Below, one piece after another: positions 1 through 14,244 of a stretch of DNA of 64,000 bases. A program made the position numbers and the translations under genes. Location: assembly GCF_038397785.1 (NCBI RefSeq), contig NZ_CP151642.1, positions 2,542,001 to 2,606,000 on the forward strand. The letters run 5' to 3'. The DNA is from Salinibacterium sp. TMP30. GTDB taxonomy: Bacteria > Actinomycetota > Actinomycetes > Actinomycetales > Microbacteriaceae. The notes under the pieces are model-generated. The model did not search any database. It had not been told where the DNA came from and worked only from the letters and a program-made list of their open reading frames with translations. Within the stretch, counting starts at the first letter, position 1. The number at the start of each line of letters is the position of its first letter.

Positions 1-3000
1 TTGGGCTCAGAATCATCAGTAACCGCGGTGTCGTCGGGGTCGGAACCTTCCGCACTGGCGATATTGATGATCGAACCGGCATCCACGTCGGCCTGAGTGA
101 CGACGTAGGTGGCGCTCGCCGTCGCAACTTCGCCGGGTGCGAGCACATTCGGGCTCGCGGGCGTCGGCCACACGATGGCCAGCCCTGACAGGTCAGGAAG
201 CGGGTCGCTGAGCGTCACCGTATCTAGCGTGACGTTGCCCGAGTTGAGAATCTGGAACTCATAATCAATCGTGTCGCCAACCTCTGCAGATGCGCGAGGA
301 GTGCCCACCTTGGTAACCGTGATACTCGGTGCCGCCAAAACAGTCGGGACGATGACTTCGTTCGAGGTCTCAACCACCAACACCCGGTCCGGAGTTTCTG
401 CAGACATATCAGCGATATTCGAGATGAAGCCGCGATCAACATCTTCTTGAGTCAGCTGATACGTCGCAACGCCTACGACCGCTTCACCTACGGGCACCTC
501 ACCGGGCTTTGCCGGGTCTGGCCACGTGATGACGGGTACGGAGAGACCAGGCAGAGGGTCGAGCAAGCGGCCGTCATAAAGGGTGACGTTTCCGTTGTTT
601 GTCACAGTCAACGTGTATTGGATGGTGTCGCCGACTTCGCCAACACCACCATCAAGGTTGATGCCTGACTTCACCGGGGAGAGCACCGGAGCGGCGGCGA
701 CGATTACCGTCTCGCTCGCGGTGTCGCGAACGGTGCCCCCCGCGGGCATGTTGGCATCCGCAGTGACGGTGTTGTCGACGCCACCAGCGTCAACGTCCGC
801 TTGGGTGAGCACGTACGAGGCAACCGCGGTGGCGCTTTGGCCAGGCGCAAGTTCGCCATCTGTCGCCGTGGGCCAGGTGTAGGTGAGTGCGCTTAAGTTA
901 AGCAGCGGATCTGTGAGAGTGACATCGCTGAGCGTTACGTTTCCGCTATTGCGCACGGTGAAGGAGTAGTTGACCGTGTCGCCTTCGAATCCAGCAGCTC
1001 CCGGCGCAAGCTCGCCGTTCTTTGTCACAGTGACGGAACCACTCGCAGCTTCTGTTGCAACATCGATCGGACCGACCGAAGCGCTCACCGCGCCCGTTGG
1101 TGACGTCGCCACAACGTCCGCGCTGTTGCGCACATACCCAAGGTCAACATCATCCTGTGTTAGCTCATAGGTAGCGGTCGCCGTCGCAACCCCGTTGGGA
1201 GCAAGCTCCCCGGAGGCGCCAGGCCACGAGTAAGCCAGAGTGGAAAGTCCAACGAGCGGGTCGGCGATCGTCACACCGGTAACGGTCGTGTTGCCCGCGT
1301 TGCGCACGGTGAAGACGTAGCTCACGAGATCACCCAAGCGGGCGCCATCCGGAGTAGTGCCTGCTTTGTCGATCGTGATCGATGATTCGCGTGTTTCGGT
1401 GGGGGTCACCGCTGCAGCAGAGTACTCAAAGTATTCGGTTCCCGCGGGCGTCACACCAATTGCCTCAGCAGTGTTGCTGACTTCACCGGCGTCCACATCG
1501 GCTTGCGTGACCGTGTAGGTAGCTGTGGCACTCGCACTTTCGCCAGGGGCAAGCACCCGATCGACACCGGGCCACACGATCGCTGGAGCGCTTACGCCCG
1601 GGAGCGAATCGAGCAAGACCACACCGGTGAACGTGACGTTGCCGGAGTTAGTGATGCTGAACGTGTAGTCGATCACATCGCCGGCCTCGCCCGGCTGGCC
1701 ACCCAGCTTGCCAGTCTTCACCACGGTCAGATCCGGGGCCGGGGTTAGTGCAAGGGTCGCCGAAGCTGGCTCGAGTACCGCCGAACCCGTGGGCGGAAGC
1801 GCCGAAGCATTGACGGTGTTGACGAGCGATCCAGCGTCAATGTCACTCTGAGCGAGGGCGTACGTCGCAGTCGCTGTCACCACATCGGTCGGATTGAGGA
1901 GACCGGGCGTGCCACTCGGCCAGGTGCCGAAGGTGACCGCGGTGAGCCCCGGTAGTTGATCAATGAGGTCCACGGATGTCAGTGAGACGTTGCCATCATT
2001 CGTGACCGTGAAGCTGTACTCGACGGTATCGCCAGCAACCCCGGTCGCCCCCGTCGCCAGTGAACCACTCTTGGTGACAGCCACGGACGACGTTGGGTCA
2101 ACGGTTTTTGTGATGACCTTCGGAGAGTTTCCCGTGACGGCAGCACCCTGAGCGCCGGTTCCGCTCGCAGAAGCCGTGTTTGCCACCTGACCCGCGTTCA
2201 CGTCGTCCTGCGAAATCGTGTACGACGCGGTCGCGGTAACGCTTTCACCCGGAGCGAGCGACCGCGTCGTGTTCGCAACATCCCAATCAACGATGGGTGT
2301 GCTCAGTCCCGGCAGTGGGTCACTGAGCACGATATCGGAGATCGTGACATTTCCCAGGTTCGTAATGACGAACGTGTAAACGATTTCTTCACCACGTTCT
2401 CCGACACCGTTGCCCGCAGCATCAACGCTGGCCGATTTGTTGACGCCGAGCAGTGGGGCGGGCCGTACCGTCGAAATTACTACCGTGTTGGTGGGTGCGG
2501 TTACGGGTTGGTTATTGGGCGTCAGCGCGCCAACCTCTGCCGTGTTTTCGATGTATCCCAGATCGATATCGGCCTGAGTGAGCGCGTAGTCCGCCGTTCC
2601 CGTAACAGACTCGCCGACTTTCAGAAGTCCGGGTTGTGCAGGAGTCGGCCAGTCAATGACGGGATCGCTAATACCGGGCAGTGGGTCAAGGAGCTGGCCA
2701 TTGTGAACCGTGACGTTTCCGGTGTTCGTGACCGTCACGGCATAGTCGATGATGTCGCCAACCGCCCCGATGGCACCGGGGCGCAACGTTCCCGTCTTAA
2801 CCGCACTCAGGCTCGCAAGAGGTTCAACAACAACAGTCGAGACGGCCGTGCCATCAATCTCTGCAGCACCACCGGGGGGCTGCGCTGTTCCCGTAACGGT
2901 ATTCATCACGGCGCCCGAATCCACATCGGTCTGCGTGAGTGTGTAACTCGCTTGCGCGGTGACGACTGCACCGGGAGCTAGCTCGCCCGCGACCGAGCCG

Positions 3001-6000
3001 GGAGCCCAGGTGTAGGCGAGTGAGGTGATCCCCGGCAGAGAGTCGGTGAGCTCTACTGCCATGAGCGAAACATTCCCGGTGTTTGTCACGGTGAACGAGT
3101 ACACAATATCGTCGCCAGCACGCCCCGTAGCACCCGGCGCAAGCTCGCCAGATTTGGTAACCACAATGCTGGCACTCTGTGCGACCAATGACGTAACCGC
3201 GGAAGGTGAATCATCGCTGACGGTGGAGTCGTCTCCGGCGGACTCGCCGAAACCGGTTGCCGTGTTGCTCACAGAGCCGAAATCAACATCGGCTTGAGTG
3301 ATGGTGTAACTTGCCGTGGCGGCAATGAACTCTCCGGGAGCCAGCGCGCGGTCGGGCGACGGCCAAGACCCGTACGCGATTGCGCTGAGCCCCGCCAAAG
3401 TGTCAGCGATCGCGACATTCTTCACCGTGACGTTTCCATCATTAGTGACGGTGATCGTGTAGTTCACCGTGTCACCGACGTTGCCACTGCCGGAGAGAAT
3501 CGCCGCTTTAGTGGTCGTGAGCACCGGGTTCGCGGCCGCGGTAGTCACCCGGACCGTCGCAGAATCCTGATCGAGCAAAGCACCGCGCGGAGTCGACGCG
3601 GCCACTGATGAGGCATTGTCTACATACCCCCGGTTAACATCTTCCTGCGTGAGAACGTAGCTCGCGGTCGCAGTAAGCACATCGTTCGGGCCTAATGTTC
3701 CGGCGGCGTTGCCAGCCCAGTCGTCATAGCTGATCGCCGAGACCCCGGCCAACGGGTCATCAATACTCACGTCGCTGAGCGTGACATTTCCGCTGTTCGT
3801 CACAGTAAAAGTGAAGCCAACAGTGTCGCCAACAGCACGGCCAGTCGGCACCGCATTCTCTGCCTTCGTAATACTGATGGCGGGAGCCGCCACGAGCGGA
3901 ACCGTCGCCGATGTCGTCGCGCGGGCTACAGCGCCCCGCGATGGAGTGCCGGATGCGTCAACAGAGTTAATGACCGCACCGGCGTCAACATCCGCCTGGG
4001 TAACGACAGAGCTGGCCCGCGCGATCACGGACTCACCGGGGTTCAACTGCCCCGCTATACCGCTCGGCCATGGGTCGAATGCGGGAACGACTCCCGCGAG
4101 CGCGTCAACGAGCGCGACGCCACTGACGGTAACGTTTCCCGTGTTGGTGACCGTGAACGTCCAGTCAACGGTGTCTCCGGCGTGGCTCGCTGACGTTCCG
4201 CTCTTCGTCACCGTGATTCCCGGTCGAGCAATGTCGGTAGCGGTCGTTACCGACACAAGGGCACTCTCGACGGGAACCGCCGACAGCGTTGCCCCCTGCG
4301 ATTTCGCGGTATTGAGCACAGAACCCGCATCGACATCGATCTGGGTGATTACGTAATCTGCCGTGGCAGTCGCGATCTCACCCGGGTCAAGGACTGTTGT
4401 TGACAGCACGGGGGTCGAAGCACCTAAAAGCGGGTCATCGAGAACAATATTCTCCAGAGTGACATTGCCCGTGTTCTCAACGATGAACGAGTAGGTGATT
4501 GTTGTGCCGACCGCTGCAGGACTCGGAATAACACTCGCAGTTTTAGTAGTTCTCAGTTCGGGCCGCTGCGCACCGGTAGCAACGACAACTTCGCCAGACT
4601 CGCCAGATACTGATGCTGCTCCGCCCGGAGGTTGCGCGGAAACGAACGCCTCGTTGGTGACGCTTCCGACGTTAATATCTGCCAGTTGAATCTCATACGT
4701 CGCGGTGGCAATCGCGGTCTGACCTGGCGCGAGAACATTGTCTGCGCCTGGCCACGAAATGTTGGGCACGCTGAGATCGGCGAGGCTGTCGATCAGCGTC
4801 ACTGCGGTGAGTGTTTGATTTCCGGTATTGCGGATCGTCATTGTGAACGTGATGACATCGCCTTCAAGCCCGCTACCGCCGACGGCTGCCGTCTTTTCCA
4901 CGTTAATCCGTGGGGCAGCGGCGATCGACACGGTCGACGAATCATTCTTCGCAAAAGCAGCGCCCGACGGCGGGCTGGCTTGAGCAGTCGCCGCATTCAC
5001 GACGGACCCAGCATCAACATCCGCCTGTTTCACAACGTAGTTGGCGGTCGCCGTAACGGTCTGTCCCGGGGTGAGCGTTCCTGCAACTCCCGGCCAGGTG
5101 TAGGTAATGGTTCCGAGATCGGGCAGCGTGTCGGTGACACCCACGCTCGTCAGCGTCACATTGCCAGCATTTCTCGCGGTAAAGGTATAGGTGATGGTGT
5201 CGCCAGCGACTCCGAGCGAACCGGGCTGGAGAGCCCCAGCCTTTGAGAAGGTAAGCGTCGAATTAGTGGCGACGGTGGGAGTCTGAATCGGGTCCGAGGC
5301 GTCAGCGATTACGCCCGCCGCCGGCGCCGTTCCTTGGGCCGTAGCTGTGTTGTTGACGAAACCTGCGTCGACATCCGCCTGCTTAATGGTGTATCTCGCC
5401 GTTGCGACAACCTGCGTCGACGGTGGCAGCGTTCCCGTAACCCCACCGGGCCAGGCGCCGTAGGTGAGCGAACTGAGACCCACAAGCGGATCACTAGCCG
5501 AAACTGAAGTCAGAGTCACGTTGCCGATATTGGCCACGGTTATCGAATAGGTGATGATGTCGCCAACGGCACCGGTGCCGGCAACGCTCGCCGACTTCGT
5601 AGTGATAATACCCGGCGCCCGAGTCGCGGTATTCACCGAGACCGTCGGAGACGACGCAGTCGCGTTGGCGCCGACCGGCGGCTTGCCCGATACCGAGGCC
5701 GTGTTGGTGACGGTGCCTGCGTTTTGGTCAGACTGGAGGATGACGTAGTCAGCGGTCGCAGTGATGCTTTGCCCTGGTGCGAGGCGGCCGGCAGTCCCGC
5801 TCGGCCAGCCCGCGTAAGTGAGAGCACTGAGCCCCACGTGCGTGTCGACGATCGTCACACCCGTCAGAGTGACGTTTCCCGTGTTCTGGGCAGTGAAGGT
5901 GTAGCGGACGGTGTCGCCGACCACACCGGTTCCCGGTGAAACTATGGCTGCAGTCTTGTCGAGAGTCACGCTCGCGTTCGAAGCGAGTGTCAGCGTTGCC

Positions 6001-9000
6001 GGCGCCGTCGCGGATGCCGGCGAGCCCCGAGAAGGTGTACCCCGGGCAGTGGCCGTGTTCGAAACCGCGCCGGAATCAACATCTGTCTGCGTCAGCGTGG
6101 ACGTTGCTGTGGCGGTAACGCTCTGGCCGGGAGCAAGGGTGCCAGCACTCGACGGCCACGTTCCATAGGTGACAGCGGAAATACCCGGGAGCGAGTCGGA
6201 GACATTAACCGAGGTGAGCGTAACGTTTCCGGAGTTACTGAGGGTGATGCTCCACGTGACAATGTCACCCGCGACGCCCTGTGCACCACCGGCGAGAGCG
6301 CCCGACTTCGTGACGCCAATGCTTGGTGTGGCCGCTGCTGTCGGGGTGACGAGTTGCGAGGATGGAGCCGTGACGACGGCACCCGTGGGTGGCGTGCCAG
6401 ACGCGGTCGCAATGTTCTTCACCGAACCGGCATCGACATCCGCCTGGGTAATTGTGTACGTGGCGGTTCCGGTCACTGTTCCGCCGGGGTTCAGTTGGCC
6501 CGAGACACCGCCTGACCATGTCAGGCTCGGTGGTGAGAGCCCAGGAAGCGGGTCGGTGAGGGTGACTGCCGTCAGCGTGACGTTACCGGTGTTGCGCGCG
6601 GTGAGCGTGTAAGTGATGGTGTCGCCGACTCTTCCCGTTCCCGAAACGGTAGCGCTCTTGAGCGTCTCCAAAGACGGTGCCGCACCTACCGTCGGCACTA
6701 CCGCCGGCGTCGACGTTGCGGTTGCCACCGGCCCTGAGGGCGGGGTTCCGGATGCTGTGGCGGTGTTGCTCACTGAGCCCACGTTCACATCTGACTGCTT
6801 AATCGTGTATGTCGCCGTGGCCGTCACTTGGGCGTTCGGGGCAAGGGTTCCCGCGACTCCACCCGGCCAAGCACCGAAAGTGACCGCGGAGAGATCGGCC
6901 AAAGAGTCGGAGATTGCTGTGGACGTCAACGTCACGTTTCCCGTGTTGCGCACGACGAACGAGAAAGTGATCGTGTCACCAACGCGCCCAGTGCCTGCCG
7001 TGACTGCGCCGGACTTTGTCACGGTGAGCTTTGCGCTCGTCACCAGAGGGACGGTGGCGGCGTCAGTCGCTGAAACGCCGGTCCCGTTCGCGCCGGTTCC
7101 GGTTGCGCTCGCGGTATTCATGATCGACCCGGAGTCGACATCCTGCTGCTTCACCGTGTACGTCGCAGTTGCGGTCACCTGCGCGCCCGGAGCGAGCGTT
7201 CCGGCGGCGCCACCGGGCCACGTGCCAAAGCTGATAGCGGAAAGGCCGGACAGCGGATCAGTTATCGCCGCGCCTGAAACCGTGACGTTGCCCGTATTGC
7301 GCAGCACAAAGCTGTAGGTGACGACTTCATCCGCGCGCGCGTTTGACCCTGAGGGCAGCGCACCCGTTTTCGCGAGCGAAAGCGCGGGAGCCGCAACCAC
7401 CGTAGTCGTCACTACGTCGATGGAATCATCGCTGACCGCGACCGATCCGGGAGCTAGTCCATCCGAGGTGGCACGGTTGGTGATCGAACCAGCATCAACA
7501 TCCGCCTGTTTGATGGTGTAGTTGGCAAGCGCGGTGGCAGATTGCCCCGGAGCCAAACGACCTGCTACACCGGGCCACGTCACAGCCGGAGTCGACAGTC
7601 CAATAAGCGAGTCCGTCAGGCTGACGCCCGTGAGGGTTTGATTGCCAGAGTTTGAGATCGTGATCGAGTAGGTGACCGTGTCGCCAACCTTGGCACCAGA
7701 AGTAACATTTGCTGACTTCGTGGTTGTCAGCTGAGGGGCAGCCGGTGCGGTCGGAACAACCGCAGCAGACGGAATCGACGTCACCGTTGCGTTCGCCGGT
7801 GACCTTCCTGACACCGTTGCCGTGTTCGAAACGCTGCCGGAGTCAACATCGGCCTGCTTCACCGTATACGTTGCCGATGCTGTCGCCGCCTGACCCGGTG
7901 CGATTCGGCCAGCGGTGCCAGTGGGCCAGGTAAAAACGGGGGCCGAAAGACCGGCGAGGGAATCAGCGAGCGCGACACCGGTGAGGGTCACGTTTCCCGG
8001 GTTGGTGATTGCGAACGCAAACGTAATCGTGCTGCCAACTCCGCCGCTGCCCGAGGTGACCGCACCCGTCTTGGTCACCGCGATTGCACCATTAGGGGCG
8101 ACGACCACGGTCGCGGGAGCGGTAGCGACAACTGCCGCACCGGTTGGCGGAGTACCGCGAGTTGTCGCGCTGTTGGCAACTGAACCGGCGTCGACATCCG
8201 ACTGCTTCAGGGTGTATGTCGCGCTTGCCGCTACCTGTGTGTTCGGCGCCAACGTGCCGGCGGCACCTGGCCAAGCACCAAAGGCGACAGTCGAAAGTCC
8301 GGGGAGCGGGTCGGTCAGCGTCACACCCGTCAACGTCACGTTGCCGGTGTTTCGAACAACGAAGTTATAGGTGACCACGTCACCGGCAACGCCGGTGGCT
8401 CCCGCAGCCAGAGCACCAGATTTCGTAAGCGAGATCGTGCGTGTGGCGGCGACCGTCGGTGTCGTTACCTGCGGCGACGGGTTATTCACCGTTGTGGCAC
8501 CGAAAGAGCCCGTCGAGGTTGCGGTGTTTTTTACCGAGCCGGCATCGACATCAGACTGCTTTATCACGTAGGTCGAGGTTGCGGCGATCTGCGAGTTGGG
8601 CTGGAGGGTGCCGGATGGAGCATTCGGCCAGACTCCATAAGCCAACGGTGAGAGCCCCGCCAGGGGATCGGTGATCGCCACGCCGGTGAGCGTGACGTTT
8701 CCGGTGTTTCTCGCCGTGAAGGTATAGGTGATGGTGTCGCCGACTGCGCCCGTTCCGCTGACGCTCGCGGACTTGGTGGTGGCAATCGCGGGAGACGATG
8801 CCACTGTCGGCACGACTGCCTGGGGCGACGTTGCCGAGACGGAACCGGCAGCGGGCGTGGTTCCGGATGCCGTAGCCGTGTTCTTCACGGAGCCAGCGTT
8901 AACGTCAGCCTGCTTGATCGCGTAGGTGGCTGTCGCGGAGACCTGAGTGTTGGGTGCGAGCTGGCCCGAGGTGCCGCTCGGCCAGGCACCAAAGTTCACT

Positions 9001-12000
9001 GCCGAAAGGTCGACAAGAGAATCGGCAATTGCGACGCCTGAGACGGTGACATTTCCCGTGTTACGGACGATGAAAGTGAAGGTGATTGTGTCGCCGACTG
9101 AGCCATTTCCTGTGGTAACCGCTCCCGACTTTGACACTGTCAGCGCGGGGCCGGAAGTGATGGGCACTGTTGCGGGACTCGTGCTCGTCACTGCGGGTCC
9201 GACGGGTGGGGTGCCCGCGCCCGTGGCGGTGTTGGAGACTGACCCGGCATCCACGTCGGACTGCTTGAGCACGTAGCTAGCGGCAGCGGTAACCGATTCA
9301 CCAGGTTTCAGCGTGCCGGCTACCCCAGACGGCCACGTTCCGTAAGCAAGCGCTGAAAGATCGGACAGAGAGTCAGTCGCGGCTACGGAGGTCAGGGTGA
9401 CGTTTCCGGAGTTCGTGAGCTTCACCGAGAAGTTGACGGTGTCGCCCGCACGGCCGGTTGCGCCAGCAGCAAGAGCACCAGACTTGAGGGTGGTGATTCC
9501 CGGGCTAGCGGCGACGGTCGGCACGGTGACCTGATCGGAGGGGTCGGTTGCGGTGATACCGGCGTGCTTTCCTGAACCAGTCGCGATGTTATTGACCGTG
9601 CCAGCATCCACATCAGATTGCTTGATCGTGTATGTCGCTTGCGCTGTGACCGATTGTCCGGGAGAGAGAACGCCGGTCGCGCCGGGCCATGTGTACACGA
9701 GAGCCGAAAGTCCAGTAAGCGGATCGGTTATGGTAACCCCACTTAGGCTCACGTTTCCGGTGTTTTGCGCACGGAACGAGTAGTTGATGACATCGCCGAC
9801 AGCTCCGGTGCCAGAACCCGCAATCGTCGCTGACTTGGTCGTCTCGACACCACGAACGGCCGTGATGGTCGGCACCACAACCTGGGGAGAAAGCTGCGTT
9901 ATTGTGCCGCCGGTTGGTGTTCTTGCAGTCGCGCTGGCCGTGTTCTTTACGGAGCCAGCATCGACATCTGACTGCTTAATCGTGTACGTCGCCGTTGCTG
10001 ACGCGGTCTGGCTTGGAGCCAGAACTCCGGATGCTCCGGGCCAGGTCACTGAGATCGGGCTGATCCCGGACAATGGGTCGGCCAGCGCGACCTGACTGAG
10101 GGTGACATTTCCGTTGTTCTTGACGCTGAAGGTATAGGTTACGGTGCTTCCCACGGCTCCGCTGCCCGTGGTGATGGCGCCCGATTTTGTGACTACTAAT
10201 TTCGCGTCAGCAGTGATCGGAACGGTCGCTGGAGTGGTCCGGGTGACATCGGCGCCTGACGGCGGCGTGGCTTTCGCGGTCGCGCTGTTGACCACTGCTC
10301 CCGCATCCACATCGGACTGCTTCACGGTGTATGTGGCAGTCGCGCTCACCGATTGACCAGGGTTGAGCAAACCAGTACTGCCGTTTGGCCACGCGCCGTA
10401 CGAGATTACCGATAGGCCAGGGAGGGGGTCAGTGATCCCCGCGTTCGTGAGAGTGACGTTTCCGGAGTTGCTGAGAACGAACGAATAGTTGATCGTGTCG
10501 CCAGCAGCAGAACCTCCAGCGAGTGCACCGGACTTCGTCAGAGAGACCGCGGGCGTTCGCGGCTGAAGGGGAACGTCTACGCGAGGAGAAGCTGCCGTAA
10601 CAATGATTCCCTTGGGGGAAGTTCCTGAGCTGGATGCGGTGTTACGCACGCGGCTTAAATCAACATCTGCCTGAGTGACTGTGTACGTCGCGGTCGCGGT
10701 CACCGTCTGTCCAGGCGCCAGAACGCCTGCGGTTGACGGCCATGTGTAGTTCAGCGCAGAGAGGCCGGGGAGCGGATCAGAAATCGAGACGCCAGCGAGA
10801 GTGACGTTTCCGGTGTTCTTGGCGCTGAGTGCATAGGTGACCGTATCGCCAACTCCCTTCGGAGCGGGGACCGTTCCAGACTTCGTGGTGGTGATAGCCG
10901 GGGCCGCAGGCGTGGTCGCGAGGGTTGCTGCGTTGCTGACGCCCGTCACCGCAACATTCTTGGGGGTGCGCCCTGAAACCGAGGCTTGGTTGACGATGTT
11001 TCCTGCGTCCACATTTGCCTGAGTAACGGTATACGTCGCCGTCGCCATCGCCGTCTGACCTGGCGTGAGGGTTCCCGGCGTTCCCGGCCAAGTGACGGCG
11101 AGCACCGAAAGGCCCGGGAGCGGATCGGTAATCGCGACGGATGTCAGAGTAACGTTTCCGGAGTTCTTGACCGCGAAGGTGTAGTTGACGGTGTCGCCAA
11201 CATTGCCAACGCCCGCACCCGCATAGGTGGCCGTTTTGGTGGTTTCGAACGCTGCGCTGACCGGAATCGGTGTCGTGCGGCTCGAAGTGGAGCGCGGCTT
11301 TACGCCACCATCCGCGTCGGTGCCTGTCGCCGTCGCGATATTTGCAATTGACCCCGCGTCCACATCCGCCTGCGTCAGCGTGTAGGTAGCGCGCCCGGTC
11401 GCGGTTGCTCCGGGCGCGAGTGCCCCCGCCGTCCCTGTCGGCCACGTATAGGTGATCGCCGAGAGTCCGGGCAGTGGGTCCGTAACAGCCACCGCGGTTA
11501 GGGGTGAGTCGCCGTTGTTGCGAACCGTAAAAGTGTAGTTGAGCGTGTCGCCCCCACGACCAGTGGCACCACCAGCCAGTGCGCTGGTTTTTGTGAGTTC
11601 AACGGAAGACAGCAGCACTCGGGTTGAGTCGCTGCCGTTCGCCGAATTGGCGCCCACCACGGTCGACGCGGTTGCATCAGCCGTGGTGTCGTATGACGCG
11701 GTAGTCAGTCCATTGGCCACGCACGTATAGGTGTACGACTCAAGAGGTGCCAGAGTGACTCCGGAGAGCGTGCGCGCACAGTTGGTTTGATCGTCAGTTA
11801 CCACGATGTTTTGAAGTGTTCCCACGCCAGAGTTGGTAACTTTGATCGTGAAAGTACCGGCTTCGGCCGCGGTGCGCGATTGAACGTCAAGGGCGCCATC
11901 GAAAGTTTTTTGCACGTTGATTCCGGCACTGGGAACCGAAAGGATCACATTGCGCAGTAGATACGAATCGCCGCTCGTGCTCATCCGCATGTTGACGGAG

Positions 12001-13151
12001 GTATCACCTTGCTGAACGTTGGGCAGCTCGGTGGTTGCGACATCAACGCTTTGATTGGTAAAGGTCGAGAAATCTGAGGTGTTCGTGTAGCGAATAGAGC
12101 CCTCGCCCCGACCGATTCCGATGTTACTGAAGGAGTTCGCGCTATTGCGTAGTTGGGAGTAGCCGCCGCCGCCGCGGGAGTACTCCGCGATGTCACCCGC
12201 AATATTGCGGTCGCCCTCAAAGAGTGTGTAGCCCGCGCGTGCGCCGGAACTTACCGACTTAAAGCCCGTAAACGCGACCGTTAGGGGAGCGTCGCTCGCG
12301 CCTTCTCTGACATGACCCTCATAGAAGATAATCCGCTTTGGGTACGAATCGGAGTTGGACGGAATGAACTTCCCAAAATCGTAGATCACCGTCAACGACC
12401 AGCCTGCGAAGCAGCCCGCTCCCTGCGGTGTCCAAATGTTTCCCGCAGAAACCGTAAGGGGTGAACCTGCCGTAGCCCCGGAGAACGCCGATGTTACGTC
12501 CGAACCTGCACTGTAATAGAGGCTCGTAGATGTCCCCGCGGGGTCTTCGAGGATGCTTGCAGGAGCGAAGGAAGAGACCGGGGATGAACCGACTTTCAGT
12601 TGTACCGCCTGAGTTCGATAACCCGTCGCCGACCCCGGAGGCATAGTGGCGGTTCCTCGGTTGCCACCGGGTGAGGCGCAATACGCAGCCGATTGGCCGG
12701 TGAACGCACCCGTATTTGCACTCCAACTGAGGAAGGCTTTCGTTACGGTCGAGCCGGAAGGGATCGTTATGTTGGCTGAACTTGAGTTAGTAGTGAAACC
12801 GCCGACGGTGTTCGAGTTCTGCAGGTAGAAGTTGTCGTTGACGTTGTTGCCGTTTGACGACGAAGCCGAATGAAGGTCTGCACACGATCCAGTGCCCGAC
12901 TGAAACGCACCGAGGCACTCAAGAACACCGTTGCCCGCCATGACGAAGTCACCATTGACGGTGGTCTGATAGTTGGGAGCAGTGCCGCTGTTGGTACCCC
13001 ACTGAACAATTGCCGCTTCCGCTGGTGCTGCGGGAATCACGGTGAGCCCGGCGACCAGTAACCCGAAGGTGACGATACTCGCGATACCACTTATCACAGC
13101 ATTTCGAGGTCCCCGCTGGGAGCGCTCTGCCGCGATACGACCGTCTCGCAC
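1..13151 (-). CDS. Giant secreted DUF11/DUF7507-repeat surface protein (5' part; runs off left edge)
   Basis: This is one open frame of at least 4,383 codons. Codon phase is the same at the points I checked (for example 13151, 8930, 6110 and 110), and there is no stop before the left edge. I chose the GTG at 13151 because a GGGGGAG ribosome site lies 6 nt upstream. It begins a signal peptide: positively charged N-terminus, hydrophobic core near residues 20-38, and an AEA-type cleavage motif near residue 46. Residues about 47-400 form a Gly/Ser/Thr-rich all-beta head. An atypical DUF11-like module with a Cys pair follows (about 408-504), then 33 repeats of about 117 residues. Each repeat has GDT-Y-F, NTGNVTLT, DPLPGLS, WP, LAPGQ and QADVDAGS-type blocks. 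The family is associated with cell-surface or adhesive proteins. The C-terminal anchor is outside the window, so anchoring and function are unknown. Confidence 0.9.
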   Translation of the reverse strand, partial: MRDGRIAAERSQRGPRNAVISGIASIVTFGLLVAGLTVIPAAPAEAAIVQWGTNSGTAPNYQTTVNGDFVMAGNGVLECLGAFQSGTGSCADLHSASSSNGNNVNDNFYLQNSNTVGGFTTNSSSANITIPSGSTVTKAFLSWSANTGAFTGQSAAYCASPGGNRGTATMPPGSATGYRTQAVQLKVGSSPVSSFAPASILEDPAGTSTSLYYSAGSDVTSAFSGATAGSPLTVSAGNIWTPQGAGCFAGWSLTVIYDFGKFIPSNSDSYPKRIIFYEGHVREGASDAPLTVAFTGFKSVSSGARAGYTLFEGDRNIAGDIAEYSRGGGGYSQLRNSANSFSNIGIGRGEGSIRYTNTSDFSTFTNQSVDVATTELPNVQQGDTSVNMRMSTSGDSYLLRNVILSVPSAGINVQKTFDGALDVQSRTAAEAGTFTIKVTNSGVGTLQNIVVTDDQTNCARTLSGVTLAPLESYTYTCVANGLTTASYDTTADATASTVVGANSANGSDSTRVLLSSVELTKTSALAGGATGRGGDTLNYTFTVRNNGDSPLTAVAVTDPLPGLSAITYTWPTGTAGALAPGATATGRATYTLTQADVDAGSIANIATATGTDADGGVKPRSTSSRTTPIPVSAAFETTKTATYAGAGVGNVGDTVNYTFAVKNSGNVTLTSVAITDPLPGLSVLAVTWPGTPGTLTPGQTAMATATYTVTQANVDAGNIVNQASVSGRTPKNVAVTGVSNAATLATTPAAPAITTTKSGTVPAPKGVGDTVTYALSAKNTGNVTLAGVSISDPLPGLSALNYTWPSTAGVLAPGQTVTATATYTVTQADVDLSRVRNTASSSGTSPKGIIVTAASPRVDVPLQPRTPAVSLTKSGALAGGSAAGDTINYSFVLSNSGNVTLTNAGITDPLPGLSVISYGAWPNGSTGLLNPGQSVSATATYTVKQSDVDAGAVVNSATAKATPPSGADVTRTTPATVPITADAKLVVTKSGAITTGSGAVGSTVTYTFSVKNNGNVTLSQVALADPLSGISPISVTWPGASGVLAPSQTASATATYTIKQSDVDAGSVKNTASATARTPTGGTITQLSPQVVVPTITAVRGVETTKSATIAGSGTGAVGDVINYSFRAQNTGNVSLSGVTITDPLTGLSALVYTWPGATGVLSPGQSVTAQATYTIKQSDVDAGTVNNIATGSGKHAGITATDPSDQVTVPTVAASPGITTLKSGALAAGATGRAGDTVNFSVKLTNSGNVTLTSVAATDSLSDLSALAYGTWPSGVAGTLKPGESVTAAASYVLKQSDVDAGSVSNTATGAGTPPVGPAVTSTSPATVPITSGPALTVSKSGAVTTGNGSVGDTITFTFIVRNTGNVTVSGVAIADSLVDLSAVNFGAWPSGTSGQLAPNTQVSATATYAIKQADVNAGSVKNTATASGTTPAAGSVSATSPQAVVPTVASSPAIATTKSASVSGTGAVGDTITYTFTARNTGNVTLTGVAITDPLAGLSPLAYGVWPNAPSGTLQPNSQIAATSTYVIKQSDVDAGSVKNTATSTGSFGATTVNNPSPQVTTPTVAATRTISLTKSGALAAGATGVAGDVVTYNFVVRNTGNVTLTGVTLTDPLPGLSTVAFGAWPGAAGTLAPNTQVAASATYTLKQSDVDAGSVANSATTRGTPPTGAAVVATAPATVVVAPNGAIAVTKTGAVTSGSGGVGSTITFAFAITNPGNVTLTGVALADSLAGLSAPVFTWPTGTAGRIAPGQAATASATYTVKQADVDSGSVSNTATVSGRSPANATVTSIPSAAVVPTAPAAPQLTTTKSANVTSGAKVGDTVTYSITISNSGNQTLTGVSLTDSLIGLSTPAVTWPGVAGRLAPGQSATALANYTIKQADVDAGSITNRATSDGLAPGSVAVSDDSIDVVTTTVVAAPALSLAKTGALPSGSNARADEVVTYSFVLRNTGNVTVSGAAITDPLSGLSAISFGTWPGGAAGTLAPGAQVTATATYTVKQQDVDSGSIMNTASATGTGANGTGVSATDAATVPLVTSAKLTVTKSGAVTAGTGRVGDTITFSFVVRNTGNVTLTSTAISDSLADLSAVTFGAWPGGVAGTLAPNAQVTATATYTIKQSDVNVGSVSNTATASGTPPSGPVATATSTPAVVPTVGAAPSLETLKSATVSGTGRVGDTITYTLTARNTGNVTLTAVTLTDPLPGLSPPSLTWSGGVSGQLNPGGTVTGTATYTITQADVDAGSVKNIATASGTPPTGAVVTAPSSQLVTPTAAATPSIGVTKSGALAGGAQGVAGDIVTWSITLSNSGNVTLTSVNVSDSLPGISAVTYGTWPSSAGTLAPGQSVTATATSTLTQTDVDSGAVSNTATARGTPSRGSPASATAPATLTLASNASVTLDKTAAIVSPGTGVVGDTVRYTFTAQNTGNVTLTGVTIVDTHVGLSALTYAGWPSGTAGRLAPGQSITATADYVILQSDQNAGTVTNTASVSGKPPVGANATASSPTVSVNTATRAPGIITTKSASVAGTGAVGDIITYSITVANIGNVTLTSVSASDPLVGLSSLTYGAWPGGVTGTLPPSTQVVATARYTIKQADVDAGFVNNTATAQGTAPAAGVIADASDPIQTPTVATNSTLTFSKAGALQPGSLGVAGDTITYTFTARNAGNVTLTSVGVTDTLPDLGTITYTWPGVAGTLTPGQTVTATANYVVKQADVDAGSVVNAATAQASPPSGAAFAKNDSSTVSIAAAPRINVEKTAAVGGSGLEGDVITFTMTIRNTGNQTLTAVTLIDSLADLSVPNISWPGADNVLAPGQTAIATATYEIQLADINVGSVTNEAFVSAQPPGGAASVSGESGEVVVATGAQRPELRTTKTASVIPSPAAVGTTITYSFIVENTGNVTLENIVLDDPLLGASTPVLSTTVLDPGEIATATADYVITQIDVDAGSVLNTAKSQGATLSAVPVESALVSVTTATDIARPGITVTKSGTSASHAGDTVDWTFTVTNTGNVTVSGVALVDALAGVVPAFDPWPSGIAGQLNPGESVIARASSVVTQADVDAGAVINSVDASGTPSRGAVARATTSATVPLVAAPAISITKAENAVPTGRAVGDTVGFTFTVTNSGNVTLSDVSIDDPLAGVSAISYDDWAGNAAGTLGPNDVLTATASYVLTQEDVNRGYVDNASSVAASTPRGALLDQDSATVRVTTAAANPVLTTTKAAILSGSGNVGDTVNYTITVTNDGNVTVKNVAIADTLAGLSAIAYGSWPSPDRALAPGEFIAATASYTITQADVDFGSVSNTATGFGESAGDDSTVSDDSPSAVTSLVAQSASIVVTKSGELAPGATGRAGDDIVYSFTVTNTGNVSLMAVELTDSLPGITSLAYTWAPGSVAGELAPGAVVTAQASYTLTQTDVDSGAVMNTVTGTAQPPGGAAEIDGTAVSTVVVEPLASLSAVKTGTLRPGAIGAVGDIIDYAVTVTNTGNVTVHNGQLLDPLPGISDPVIDWPTPAQPGLLKVGESVTGTADYALTQADIDLGYIENTAEVGALTPNNQPVTAPTNTVVISTVRPAPLLGVNKSASVDAAGNGVGERGEEIVYTFVITNLGNVTISDIVLSDPLPGLSTPIVDWDVANTTRSLAPGESVTATASYTISQDDVNAGQVANTASASGTGAQGAAVTGNSPKVITKTVDPTSSVAVTKSGSLATGATGVAGDTVEYSFTVTNDGNVSLTSVDLIDQLPGLTAVTFGTWPSGTPGLLNPTDVVTATATYALAQSDIDAGSLVNTVNASALPPTGSAVLEPASATLALTPAPDLTVVKTGKLGGQPGEAGDVIDYTFSITNSGNVTFTGVVLLDSLPGVSAPAIVWPGVDRVLAPGESASATATYTVTQADVDAGEVSNTAEAIGVTPAGTEYFEYSAAAVTPTETRESSITIDKAGTTPDGARLGDLVSYVFTVRNAGNTTVTGVTIADPLVGLSTLAYSWPGASGELAPNGVATATATYELTQDDVDLGYVRNSADVVATSPTGAVSASVGPIDVATEAASGSVTVTKNGELAPGAAGFEGDTVNYSFTVRNSGNVTLSDVTLTDPLLNLSALTYTWPTATDGELAPGQSATAVASYVLTQADVDAGGVDNTVTADANMPAGGTVRDTASETVIVAAAPVLSPVKSGINLDGGVGEVGDTIQYTLTVTNNGNVTLYDGRLLDPLPGLSVPVITWPDPAKPGEVPVGEAVVGVATYQLTQEDVDRGFISNIADMSAETPDRVLVVETSNEVIVPTVLAAPSITVTKVGTPRASAEVGDTIDYEFQILNSGNVTLDTVTLSDPLPDLSGLAIVWPTPASPNVLAPGEVATASATYVVTQADVDAGSIINIASAEGSDPDDTAVTDDSEP
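60..11640 (-). repeat. 33-copy array of ~352-bp DUF11/DUF7507 coding repeats with a 3-repeat super-period
   Basis: The QADVDAGS-type block recurs 33 times, near plus-strand positions 81, 434, 798, 1141 and so on to 11012 and 11360. Mean spacing is about 352 bp (117 codons). The linker and first strand come in three types in fixed order. One type carries SGALAxGATGxAGD; it recurs about every 1,055 bp, near 11560, 10510, 9460, 8400, 7340, 6280, 5220, 3125, 2045 and 990. A shortened version lies near 4180. The other two types are a T-K-S-G-A-V form after a VPI linker and a T-K-S-A form after a VPT linker. Repeats are diverged at nucleotide level, so this is an old array, not a recent tandem duplication. 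Confidence 0.85.
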
Positions 13152-13157
13152 TTTCCA

Positions 13158-13164
13158 CTCCCCC
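13158..13164 (-). promoter_or_regulatory. Ribosome binding site deciding the giant gene's GTG start
   Basis: A GGGGGAG purine run on the minus strand sits 6 nt before the GTG at 13151. The frame stays open upstream to about 13290, with further GTG codons. This is the only one with a good ribosome site, and the only one placing a normal signal peptide at the N-terminus. Confidence 0.6.
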
Positions 13165-13383
13165 GGATAAATCCCTTCAACTTTGTGGGTCACCACACTG
13201 CTGAAAAATTGCTCTTCGGGTGAGCGCGTCACCCTCAACCCTAGACAAGAAATCGAACTCTGGGGCGAGAACCTCAGGAAAGAGTGCTAATGGAACACCC
13301 CAGTGCACGGGTGGAACCACTCGTCCCATCGCTTAGACGGGCCGGCGCGGCAGCACAAGCGCTACGACTGTTAATCTCAGAGC

Positions 13384-14244
13384 ATGCAGCCAATGTGGAG
13401 TCCTGATGGCCCCGATCTTGTCGTTCACGGAGACAACCTCCACGCGATCGGTACCCTCCCTGACGAGAGTTTCAGGTTGATCTACATTGATCCACCGTTC
13501 AACACGGGTCGCACACAGTCACGTCAGGGCATAGCGACCAAACGATCCACGGATGGTACTCGGGTCGGGTTTGGGGGAAACACTTACGAGACCGTCAAAG
13601 GCGCCCTCTACTCGTACGACGACCGGTTCGCCGACTATTGGGAGTTTCTCGAACCCCGACTCCAGGAGGCCTGGCGCCTGCTTGATGACCGCGGCACCCT
13701 CTACCTACACCTTGATTTCCGCGAAGTTCACTACGCGAAAGTTGCCCTAGACGCACTTTTCGGTCGCGAGAGTTTTCTCAACGAAATCATCTGGGCCTAC
13801 GACTACGGTGCCCGTGCCACCAAGAAGTGGCCCTCAAAACACGACACGATCCTCGTTTACGTGAAAAACCCGAAGAACTACTACTTCAACAACGAAGAGG
13901 TCGACCGCGAACCGTATATGGCTCCGGGACTCGTCACTGCCGAAAAGGCGGCGCGAGGCAAGCTGCCAACGGACGTCTGGTGGCACACCATCGTCTCCCC
14001 GACTGGCAAAGAGAAGACCGGCTACGCGACCCAAAAACCGGAAGGAATTCTGAGGCGCATCATTCAGGCATCCAGCCAGCCTGGCGACTGGGTGCTCGAC
14101 TTCTTCGCCGGCAGTGGCACGACCGGGGCCGTCGCGCAGGCACTACATCGGCGCGTCGTGCTCGTCGAGCAGAACCCGGCCGCGATCGAAATCATCGCCC
14201 GTCGTCTCTCCCACGAGACCGTATTCGCTAACATGAGCGCATGA
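13384..14244 (+). CDS. Orphan site-specific DNA methyltransferase (adenine-N6/cytosine-N4 type)
   Basis: A 286-residue SAM-dependent DNA amino-methyltransferase. The catalytic motif IV appears as DPPF at residues 36-39, and the SAM-binding motif FAGSGTT follows near residues 241-247. Motif IV ahead of motif I is the beta-class order, with the target-recognition region between them. No restriction endonuclease gene is adjacent, so it looks like a solitary methyltransferase (regulatory, or an orphan of a restriction system). Its last codons overlap the next gene by an ATGA junction, implying translational coupling to the HAD phosphatase. No clear Shine-Dalgarno precedes the ATG. The recognition sequence cannot be read from the protein. 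Confidence 0.85.
   Translation: MQPMWSPDGPDLVVHGDNLHAIGTLPDESFRLIYIDPPFNTGRTQSRQGIATKRSTDGTRVGFGGNTYETVKGALYSYDDRFADYWEFLEPRLQEAWRLLDDRGTLYLHLDFREVHYAKVALDALFGRESFLNEIIWAYDYGARATKKWPSKHDTILVYVKNPKNYYFNNEEVDREPYMAPGLVTAEKAARGKLPTDVWWHTIVSPTGKEKTGYATQKPEGILRRIIQASSQPGDWVLDFFAGSGTTGAVAQALHRRVVLVEQNPAAIEIIARRLSHETVFANMSA

Follow-up and report, generated by a model that had tools for sequence, protein, structure and literature searches.

A giant, probably wall-anchored surface protein of Salinibacterium with 47 CLIPPER_2 modules, an apparently inherited super-period and, in relatives, a largely in-phase loss of the predicted isopeptide triad

Does the regular order of modules in a giant repeat protein reflect the architecture of a fibre or the history of its gene? 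This question is raised by a locus of Salinibacterium sp. TMP30, of which a stretch of 64,000 nucleotides (the window) was analyzed. The initial annotation had described a protein of more than 4,380 residues with 33 repeats, which runs off the left edge of the window and is built with a period of three modules. The gene and its parts inside the window are as follows:

1..13151, minus strand: giant surface-protein gene, window part (residues 1-4383 of 6073; continues past the left edge to genome position 2536930)
13158..13164, minus strand: GGGGGAG, a plausible ribosome-binding site by its sequence, 6 bases before the GTG start
13014..13151, minus strand: signal peptide predicted from reading the sequence (residues 1-46, ...PAEA)
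11907..13013, minus strand: head region (residues 47-415), no Pfam/NCBIfam family of its own, beta-rich model with a mean pLDDT of 85
11613..11906, minus strand: degenerate DUF7507-like module (residues 416-513), Pfam 19.8 bits, cut-off 27
4227..11612, minus strand: zone 1, modules r1-r21 with a period of 3; all 21 have the complete predicted K-D-N isopeptide triad
1..4226, minus strand: zone 2, window part, modules r22-r33, leaning to period 6 (r34-r47 lie outside the window)

The minus-strand frame is open from window position 13238 through the left edge, and the GTG at 13151 is the likely start of the gene. From this GTG, 4,383 residues follow within the window without an in-frame stop. In the whole genome, a single contig of 2,685,429 bases, the continuation past the left edge was confirmed, and the full frame comprises 6,073 residues and ends at position 2536930. 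The order of parts is signal peptide, head (about 370 residues), one degenerate module, 47 full modules (r1-r47, 113-123 residues each, as cut) and an LSYTG anchor. The Pfam profile DUF7507 / CLIPPER_2 has 47 matches above 27 bits within the gene and one more below this cut-off; HMM matches had to exceed 20 bits to count as modules, and all counts exclude the degenerate module that precedes r1. The window holds the domain cores of r1-r33, and the last 22 bases of the r33 linker as well as r34-r47 lie beyond its left edge; therefore, the count of 33 was right for the window. An assembly artefact was ruled out, because the 47-module array recurs in ten genomes of the genus and in other genera. 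Upstream of the giant gene lies a divergent gene for an N6/N4-type DNA methyltransferase (window 13384-14244, plus strand), which has a counterpart in the same position next to the giant gene in the relative G167 and in those Salinibacterium loci that were searched. The genome encodes a second, smaller DUF7507 protein (C1:1529097-1531511, plus strand, frame of 1,364 residues).

Inspection of the C-terminus for an LPXTG or other anchor revealed the tail LSYTGSDPRG...ARRRQRQENS, i.e., LSYTG, a hydrophobic stretch and a basic end. LSYTG is a variant of the canonical LPXTG-like motif, and LxxTG recurs in relatives. The genome encodes a class E sortase (227 bits, cut-off 160), which would accept the LSYTG motif, and a second, class-F-like sortase (122 bits, below the cut-off of 166). 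Searches with the head against Pfam and NCBIfam returned no family and no known adhesive domain. A PNGase fold was considered for the head and not accepted (best solved match PNGase Bb, TM 0.21, rmsd 24). The combination of signal peptide, head, lockable stalk, sorting signal and sortase makes a wall-anchored fibrillar adhesin the best reading. We regard it as probable that the giant is a fibrillar adhesin which is anchored by class E sortase and has a covalently locked stalk, and that its array has grown by block duplication and was frozen at 47. After export directed by the signal peptide, the N-terminal head would be carried outward on a rod of 47 DUF7507 (CLIPPER_2) domains, and the class E sortase would fix the protein to peptidoglycan via the LSYTG signal. 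An Ig-like module measures about 4 nm, and a stalk of 47 would thus be near 0.2 micrometres.

How regular is the array? One repeat type, here called phase 0, had been annotated to return about every 1,055 bp in some 11 triplets, with one degenerate copy. Indeed, the window contains 11 triplets with a spacing of 1,038-1,083 bp and phase-0 starts at 11612, 10556, 9506, 8444, 7391, 6329, 5264, 4226, 3176, 2093 and 1043, of which 4226 is the degenerate copy. Modules average 40-45% identity to one another. An all-against-all comparison of the 47 modules showed the anticipated maxima at +3, +6 and +9, and the mean pairwise identity was up at every multiple of 3 through lag 30. The identity of same-phase pairs was 0.433 versus 0.405 for other pairs, a difference that was reached in none of 5000 permutations, and the best match was in phase for 35 of the 47 modules. 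In each of ten arrays of the genus the period-3 excess was likewise reached in 0 of 2000 permutations. However, the period is not uniform. While lags 3, 6 and 9 are all prominent in modules 1-21, the Salinibacterium average for modules 22-46 is higher at lags 6 and 12 (0.449 and 0.435) than at lags 3 and 9 (0.427 and 0.425). The same modules of the relative PS02344 are at background for lags 3 and 9 (0.422 and 0.427) and reach 0.494 and 0.508 for lags 6 and 12. The hexad excess on r19-r45 was reached by 235 of 5000 triad shuffles for Salinibacterium and by 23 of 5000 for PS02344. The annotated period of three is thus real in the whole array, but the second half leans to a period of six.

The identity, best-match and shuffle tests support the earlier proposal that a three-module unit was duplicated and that its copies later diverged while staying in register. 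The array would have grown by three-module block duplication, followed by duplication of six-module blocks in the wall-proximal half. These duplications are old, because Tandem Repeats Finder did not detect an array in the array DNA and codon choice at identical residues had no phase memory (0.382 in phase versus 0.385 out of phase in G000, the genome of the window). Codon memory was therefore discarded as a means of dating the duplications. The two results also bear on in-phase gene conversion, by which same-phase modules would overwrite one another, so that the phase is kept and the number fixed. With flat codon identity and no array seen by Tandem Repeats Finder, there is no sign of recent conversion in G000. 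On the other hand, the triads r25-27 and r37-39 of PS02344 are unusually alike, and in the Salinibacterium array G001 the proximal phase-0 modules are nearer to the distal phase-0 modules (0.525) than to each other (0.490). The opposite is true for the relative G078, in which they form a type of their own (0.555 among themselves versus 0.511). The resemblance to the distal modules suggests conversion in phase, which we consider a possible, though somewhat doubtful, contribution to the history of the array.

The head was found in 10 of 27 genomes of the genus, including that of the window, and each of these arrays has 47 modules; it was not found in the other 17, some of which are drafts, and the gene is therefore not universal. 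For G017, 48 matches were obtained, one of them at 6 bits, and the array was counted as 47; the 47 modules of G015 are the sum of 5 and 42 over two frames. Frame breaks occur in two of the ten arrays, inside the head of G009 (L036) and after module 5 of G015 (L037). Altogether, exactly 47 modules are present in 16 of 19 arrays of what we call the triad clade, and outside the genus these are G167, G078, PS02344, G174, G228 and G276. The other counts are 46 in ACAM257 (at a 20-bit threshold), 35 in G105, and 74 in two frames in the basal G191. The G191 array (L081, L085), the largest seen, ends beside its lipoprotein gene. Depending on the species pair, the best cross-species match has the same module index in 89-100% of the modules, and the six 47-module arrays from outside the genus align to G001 from 1 to 47 without a gap, at a mean identity of only 49-55%. 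G105 is devoid of one 12-module block and has kept the phase; period 3 is still present in G105 (2/500) and in the first frame of G191 (0/500). Judged from these alignments, the array is old, and its number appears to be frozen in most of the clade. Divergence may have become so great that copies rarely recombine, and the number would then have frozen at 47.

Yet a number that is fixed across several genera may point to selection on length rather than to plain freezing. The number 47 would then be a ruler, because the fibre must clear the envelope or match the distance to a target, and the constancy in 16 of 19 arrays, in spite of an identity of only 48-55% between genera, is in agreement with this. 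The deviating counts of G191, G105 and ACAM257 and the 37-38 modules of the sister clade described below are not, and loss of DNA similarity alone could freeze a number. We therefore entertain a ruler only tentatively, next to freezing of an array that has grown by block duplication.

The sister clade consists of Curtobacterium and Frigoribacterium-type arrays with homologous heads, which contain 38 modules in five records (two of them from strains of one species) and 37 modules in one. All six arrays have a period of 2 and no period of 3, and they are called the doublet clade below. The period sits in modules 12-36, and modules 1-11 do not clearly show it. The 37-module array CurtMCBA was left out of the doublet-clade statistics because its indices shift, and its own period was tested. 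In the head tree the sister clade (96/95) stands beside the triad clade (91/90), inside which the forks are weak. Among further arrays, G229 has 33 modules, a more distant head and a period of 2, and a Brevibacterium array exhibits a weak period of 3 (66/2000; second test 31/1000). Neither period was found in PS02067, MbSCN70, G040 and the partial arrays G192 and L057.

Is the phase maintained or inherited? The phase-keeping had been taken to suggest a structural period of three along a rod-like fibre or a constraint on which modules may touch. In the former case a rod or bundle would complete one turn or one contact period every three modules, and the phase would be under selection. Of 120 alignment columns 20 carry phase (z > 3), and 13 of these cluster at module ends (columns 11-20 or 100-120), which an interface or contact rule would also predict. 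The scores of phase columns correlate between Salinibacterium and PS02344 (rho 0.44), and the sole large deletion, that of G105, keeps the phase. However, in-phase recombination alone would be expected to give phase-keeping deletions. The scores do not correlate between the triad clade and the sister clade (rho 0.13, p 0.15), which shares the partner gene, has a homologous head and uses a period of 2, and the lean of the second half to a period of six is also at odds with a fixed register. Substitutions argue in the same direction. Standing non-modal residues at phase-diagnostic columns prefer their own phase (delta +0.044, 0/100 permutations), but derived substitutions confined to one species lack this preference (delta -0.018, null 0.002 +/- 0.012, N=158; -0.063 in the close clade, N=36, and -0.005 on long branches, N=122). 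With a stricter ancestral definition the delta was -0.070 (null -0.002 +/- 0.018, N=81), with all 300 permutations above this value, which we read only as absence of an own-phase preference and not as avoidance. A first count of polarised singletons (329 sites, all columns, close clade), the definition of which was later tightened, had the same direction. The flux out of and into phase was uninformative, because 88 losses and 26 gains at phase-diagnostic columns are the same ratio as 276 and 85 at control columns. Taken together, a selected structural register seems improbable.

A further reading is selection against like neighbours, according to which unlike types are interleaved to avoid misfolding of adjacent similar domains. 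Periods of 2 and of 3 would both separate the closest relatives, but in G000 neighbouring modules do not have a lower identity than the remaining pairs out of phase (identity of 0.422 at lag 1 versus 0.417 at lag 2 and 0.412 at lag 4), and the PS02067 array even peaks at lag 1 (0.584). Such selection is, in our estimate, very improbable. Therefore, neither the structural period of three nor the rule on touching modules found support, and the best reading of the sequences is that the period is an inherited trace of growth by duplication rather than a maintained structure. Even if it began as history, the phase has chemical consequences, because a predicted crosslink is lost largely in phase.

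DUF7507 has been renamed CLIPPER_2 and has been assigned the triad Lys-Asp-Asn (accessible parts of PMC12617251). A profile of 21 modules of the window weakly matches the crystal chain 9IFR (E 0.048), the solved CLIPPER domain of that study, for which Lys715, Asp748 and Asn806 are given in the accessible parts; the K and N columns fall on Lys715 and Asn806, and the Asp column is one residue off Asp748. Here, K-D-N is complete in 42 of the 47 modules (missing in r34, r40, r43, r45 and r47), and for the nine further arrays of Salinibacterium the count is 41-43 of 47. Modelling of the consecutive modules r7-r10 resulted in beta-sandwich folds with a mean pLDDT of 95.7, in which the strands 4-12, 38-45 and 89-99 hold K8, D45 and N92. 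In the model, the first strand thus carries Lys and a late strand carries Asn, as expected of DUF7507 / CLIPPER_2. Modules with the full triad are predicted to form a Lys-Asn bond between these two strands, and the rod would thereby resist stretching.

Triad losses were counted for r19-r42 at the Asn column, and Asp replacing Asn (r19) was scored as lost. The five relatives compared were G078, ACAM257, G174, G228 and G276, the last three of which belong to one genus. In G078, 7 of the 8 phase-0 modules lack Asn (Ser in six of them, Asp in r19), as against 0 of the 16 others (p 2.3e-5); in the other four the numbers are 7 of 8 versus 1-2 of 16 (p 1.8e-4 to 7.5e-4). The pattern is weaker in PS02344 (4/8 versus 0/16, p 0.0066), in G167 (3/8 versus 1/16, p 0.09) and in the three Salinibacterium arrays tested (1-2/8 versus 0-1/16, p 0.1 or more). 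Lys is replaced by Asp in five of the six Ser modules of G078 and in four each of ACAM257, G174, G228 and G276. In the latter three Lys is also gone from the phase-2 modules 27, 30, 33 and 36, and ACAM257 has further triad losses besides those in phase. Complete triads number 36 of 47 in G078, 31 of 46 in ACAM257 and 32 of 47 in each of G174, G228 and G276. The modules predicted to be unlocked are r25, 28, 31, 34, 37 and 40, every third one, in the five relatives, and r22, 28, 34 and 40, every sixth one, in PS02344. In modules r1-r18, none of the 18 has lost Asn in eight of ten arrays, one has in PS02344 (Asp) and two have in ACAM257.

The doublet clade has kept the triad in modules 1-11, and its even modules from 12 to 34 or 36 are devoid of Asn; in Curtobacterium there are a few further losses of K or D. 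Within modules 12-36 of this clade (L069-L073), the Asn-less modules often have Gln two columns past the conserved Asp, at column 47, a position that is mostly Leu in the other modules; this might possibly represent an alternative chemistry. By the residues at the triad columns, the predicted triad is thus lost largely in phase, from every third proximal module in five relatives and from every second in the sister clade. The forks inside the triad clade are weak, so that some lineages may have lost their locks, or Salinibacterium may have regained them. It is conceivable, but speculative, that the super-period encodes mechanics, with nearly all distal modules locked and a regular subset of wall-proximal modules unlocked.

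The same partner accompanies arrays of both clades. Directly 3' of the giant gene, outside the window, lies a gene for a lipoprotein of 150 residues (genome 2536484-2536933, L009:2481-2933, minus strand), which overlaps the stop codon of the giant as ATGA. In a survey of 32 loci, equal to 31 distinct arrays, this overlap was kept in 25 arrays, i.e., the ten of the genus, G167, G078, ACAM257, G174, G105, G228, G276, six of the doublet clade, PS02067 and MbSCN70. In PS02344 the lipoprotein gene starts 39 or 108 bases later without an ATGA overlap, in G040 a divergent version starts 28 bases later, and in G191 it comes after the second frame; no copy was found next to the G229, Brevibacterium and Okibacterium arrays. 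Within the genus, the 10 of 27 genomes with strong matches are exactly those that have the giant, and weak matches occur in four others (E 8.5e-8 to 5.3e-4). Among 249 genomes of the family, 20 have the head (E up to 1e-40) and 22 the lipoprotein (E up to 1e-10), and 15 share both. Heads without the lipoprotein are those of G028, G113, G117, G229 and G237. Of the seven lipoproteins without a head five are weak matches, and the two strong ones, in G181 and G262, adjoin other DUF7507 arrays. The protein is unnamed in Pfam and NCBIfam, its best weak Pfam match being DUF7927 (16 bits versus 31). In 12 rows 25 residues are invariant, and the YRIYVSLL and CVLRVER regions contain many of these. The lipoprotein probably aids export, folding or anchoring of the giant at the membrane.

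Several features are known from other stalks. As in the CLIPPER_2 / DUF7507 (PF24346) and CLIPPER / DUF11 stalks covered by the accessible parts of PMC12617251, the giant has a tandem array between signal peptide and sorting signal, with Lys, Asp and Asn in the same order and 47 modules that pass the Pfam cut-off. Irregular locking and alternation as such are already known, because the same parts report DUF11 domains without the bond and a frequent alternation of DUF11 with DUF7507. In contrast to the stalks described there, the giant has 47 modules, a lineage-specific super-period and a number that is fixed across genera in most arrays, and its relatives show a largely phase-locked absence of the triad. 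A description of periodic lock loss or of this protein was not found among the listed titles and abstract openings of openly licensed PMC papers. With Gram-positive fibrillar adhesins, as far as excerpts of PMC9210967 and PMC8286594 describe them, the giant shares an export signal, an N-terminal head, a long repeat stalk and a sorting signal; its differences are a head without a known adhesive domain and the coupled lipoprotein gene.

Structural matches of the modules include the RTX extenders 6xi1 and 6xi3. The ice adhesin MpAFP uses the RTX export route, whereas the giant has sortase anchoring. In excerpts of the literature on MpAFP (PMC4083281, PMC3492233, PMC7493085) a very long Ig-like rod is likewise described, the repeats of which have about 104 residues and are identical, calcium-dependent copies, in contrast to the divergent and predicted covalently locked modules of the giant. 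Zones with different super-periods are also a feature of titin. The likeness extends to the Ig-like modules, but the titin pattern is tied to the thick filament in the accessible parts of PMC10665226 and PMC7427331, while no partner lattice is known for the giant and the tests favour inheritance.

The arrays form a series provided by nature, in which the heads are homologous but the fibres differ in super-period and in their pattern of covalent locks. Therefore, it becomes directly testable whether the order of tandem domains is history or design. Attention is also drawn to the lipoprotein that goes with the giant arrays. The triad provides a sequence rule by which the modules expected to unfold under load can be predicted in a giant adhesin. 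If the mechanical reading is true, the fibre would consist of a stiff spear and a shock absorber beneath it, the unfoldable links of which are evenly spaced. Two sister clades would have arrived at this design with different periods, the fibre would be mostly locked in Salinibacterium, and the dedicated lipoprotein would serve a shock-absorber class of fibre.
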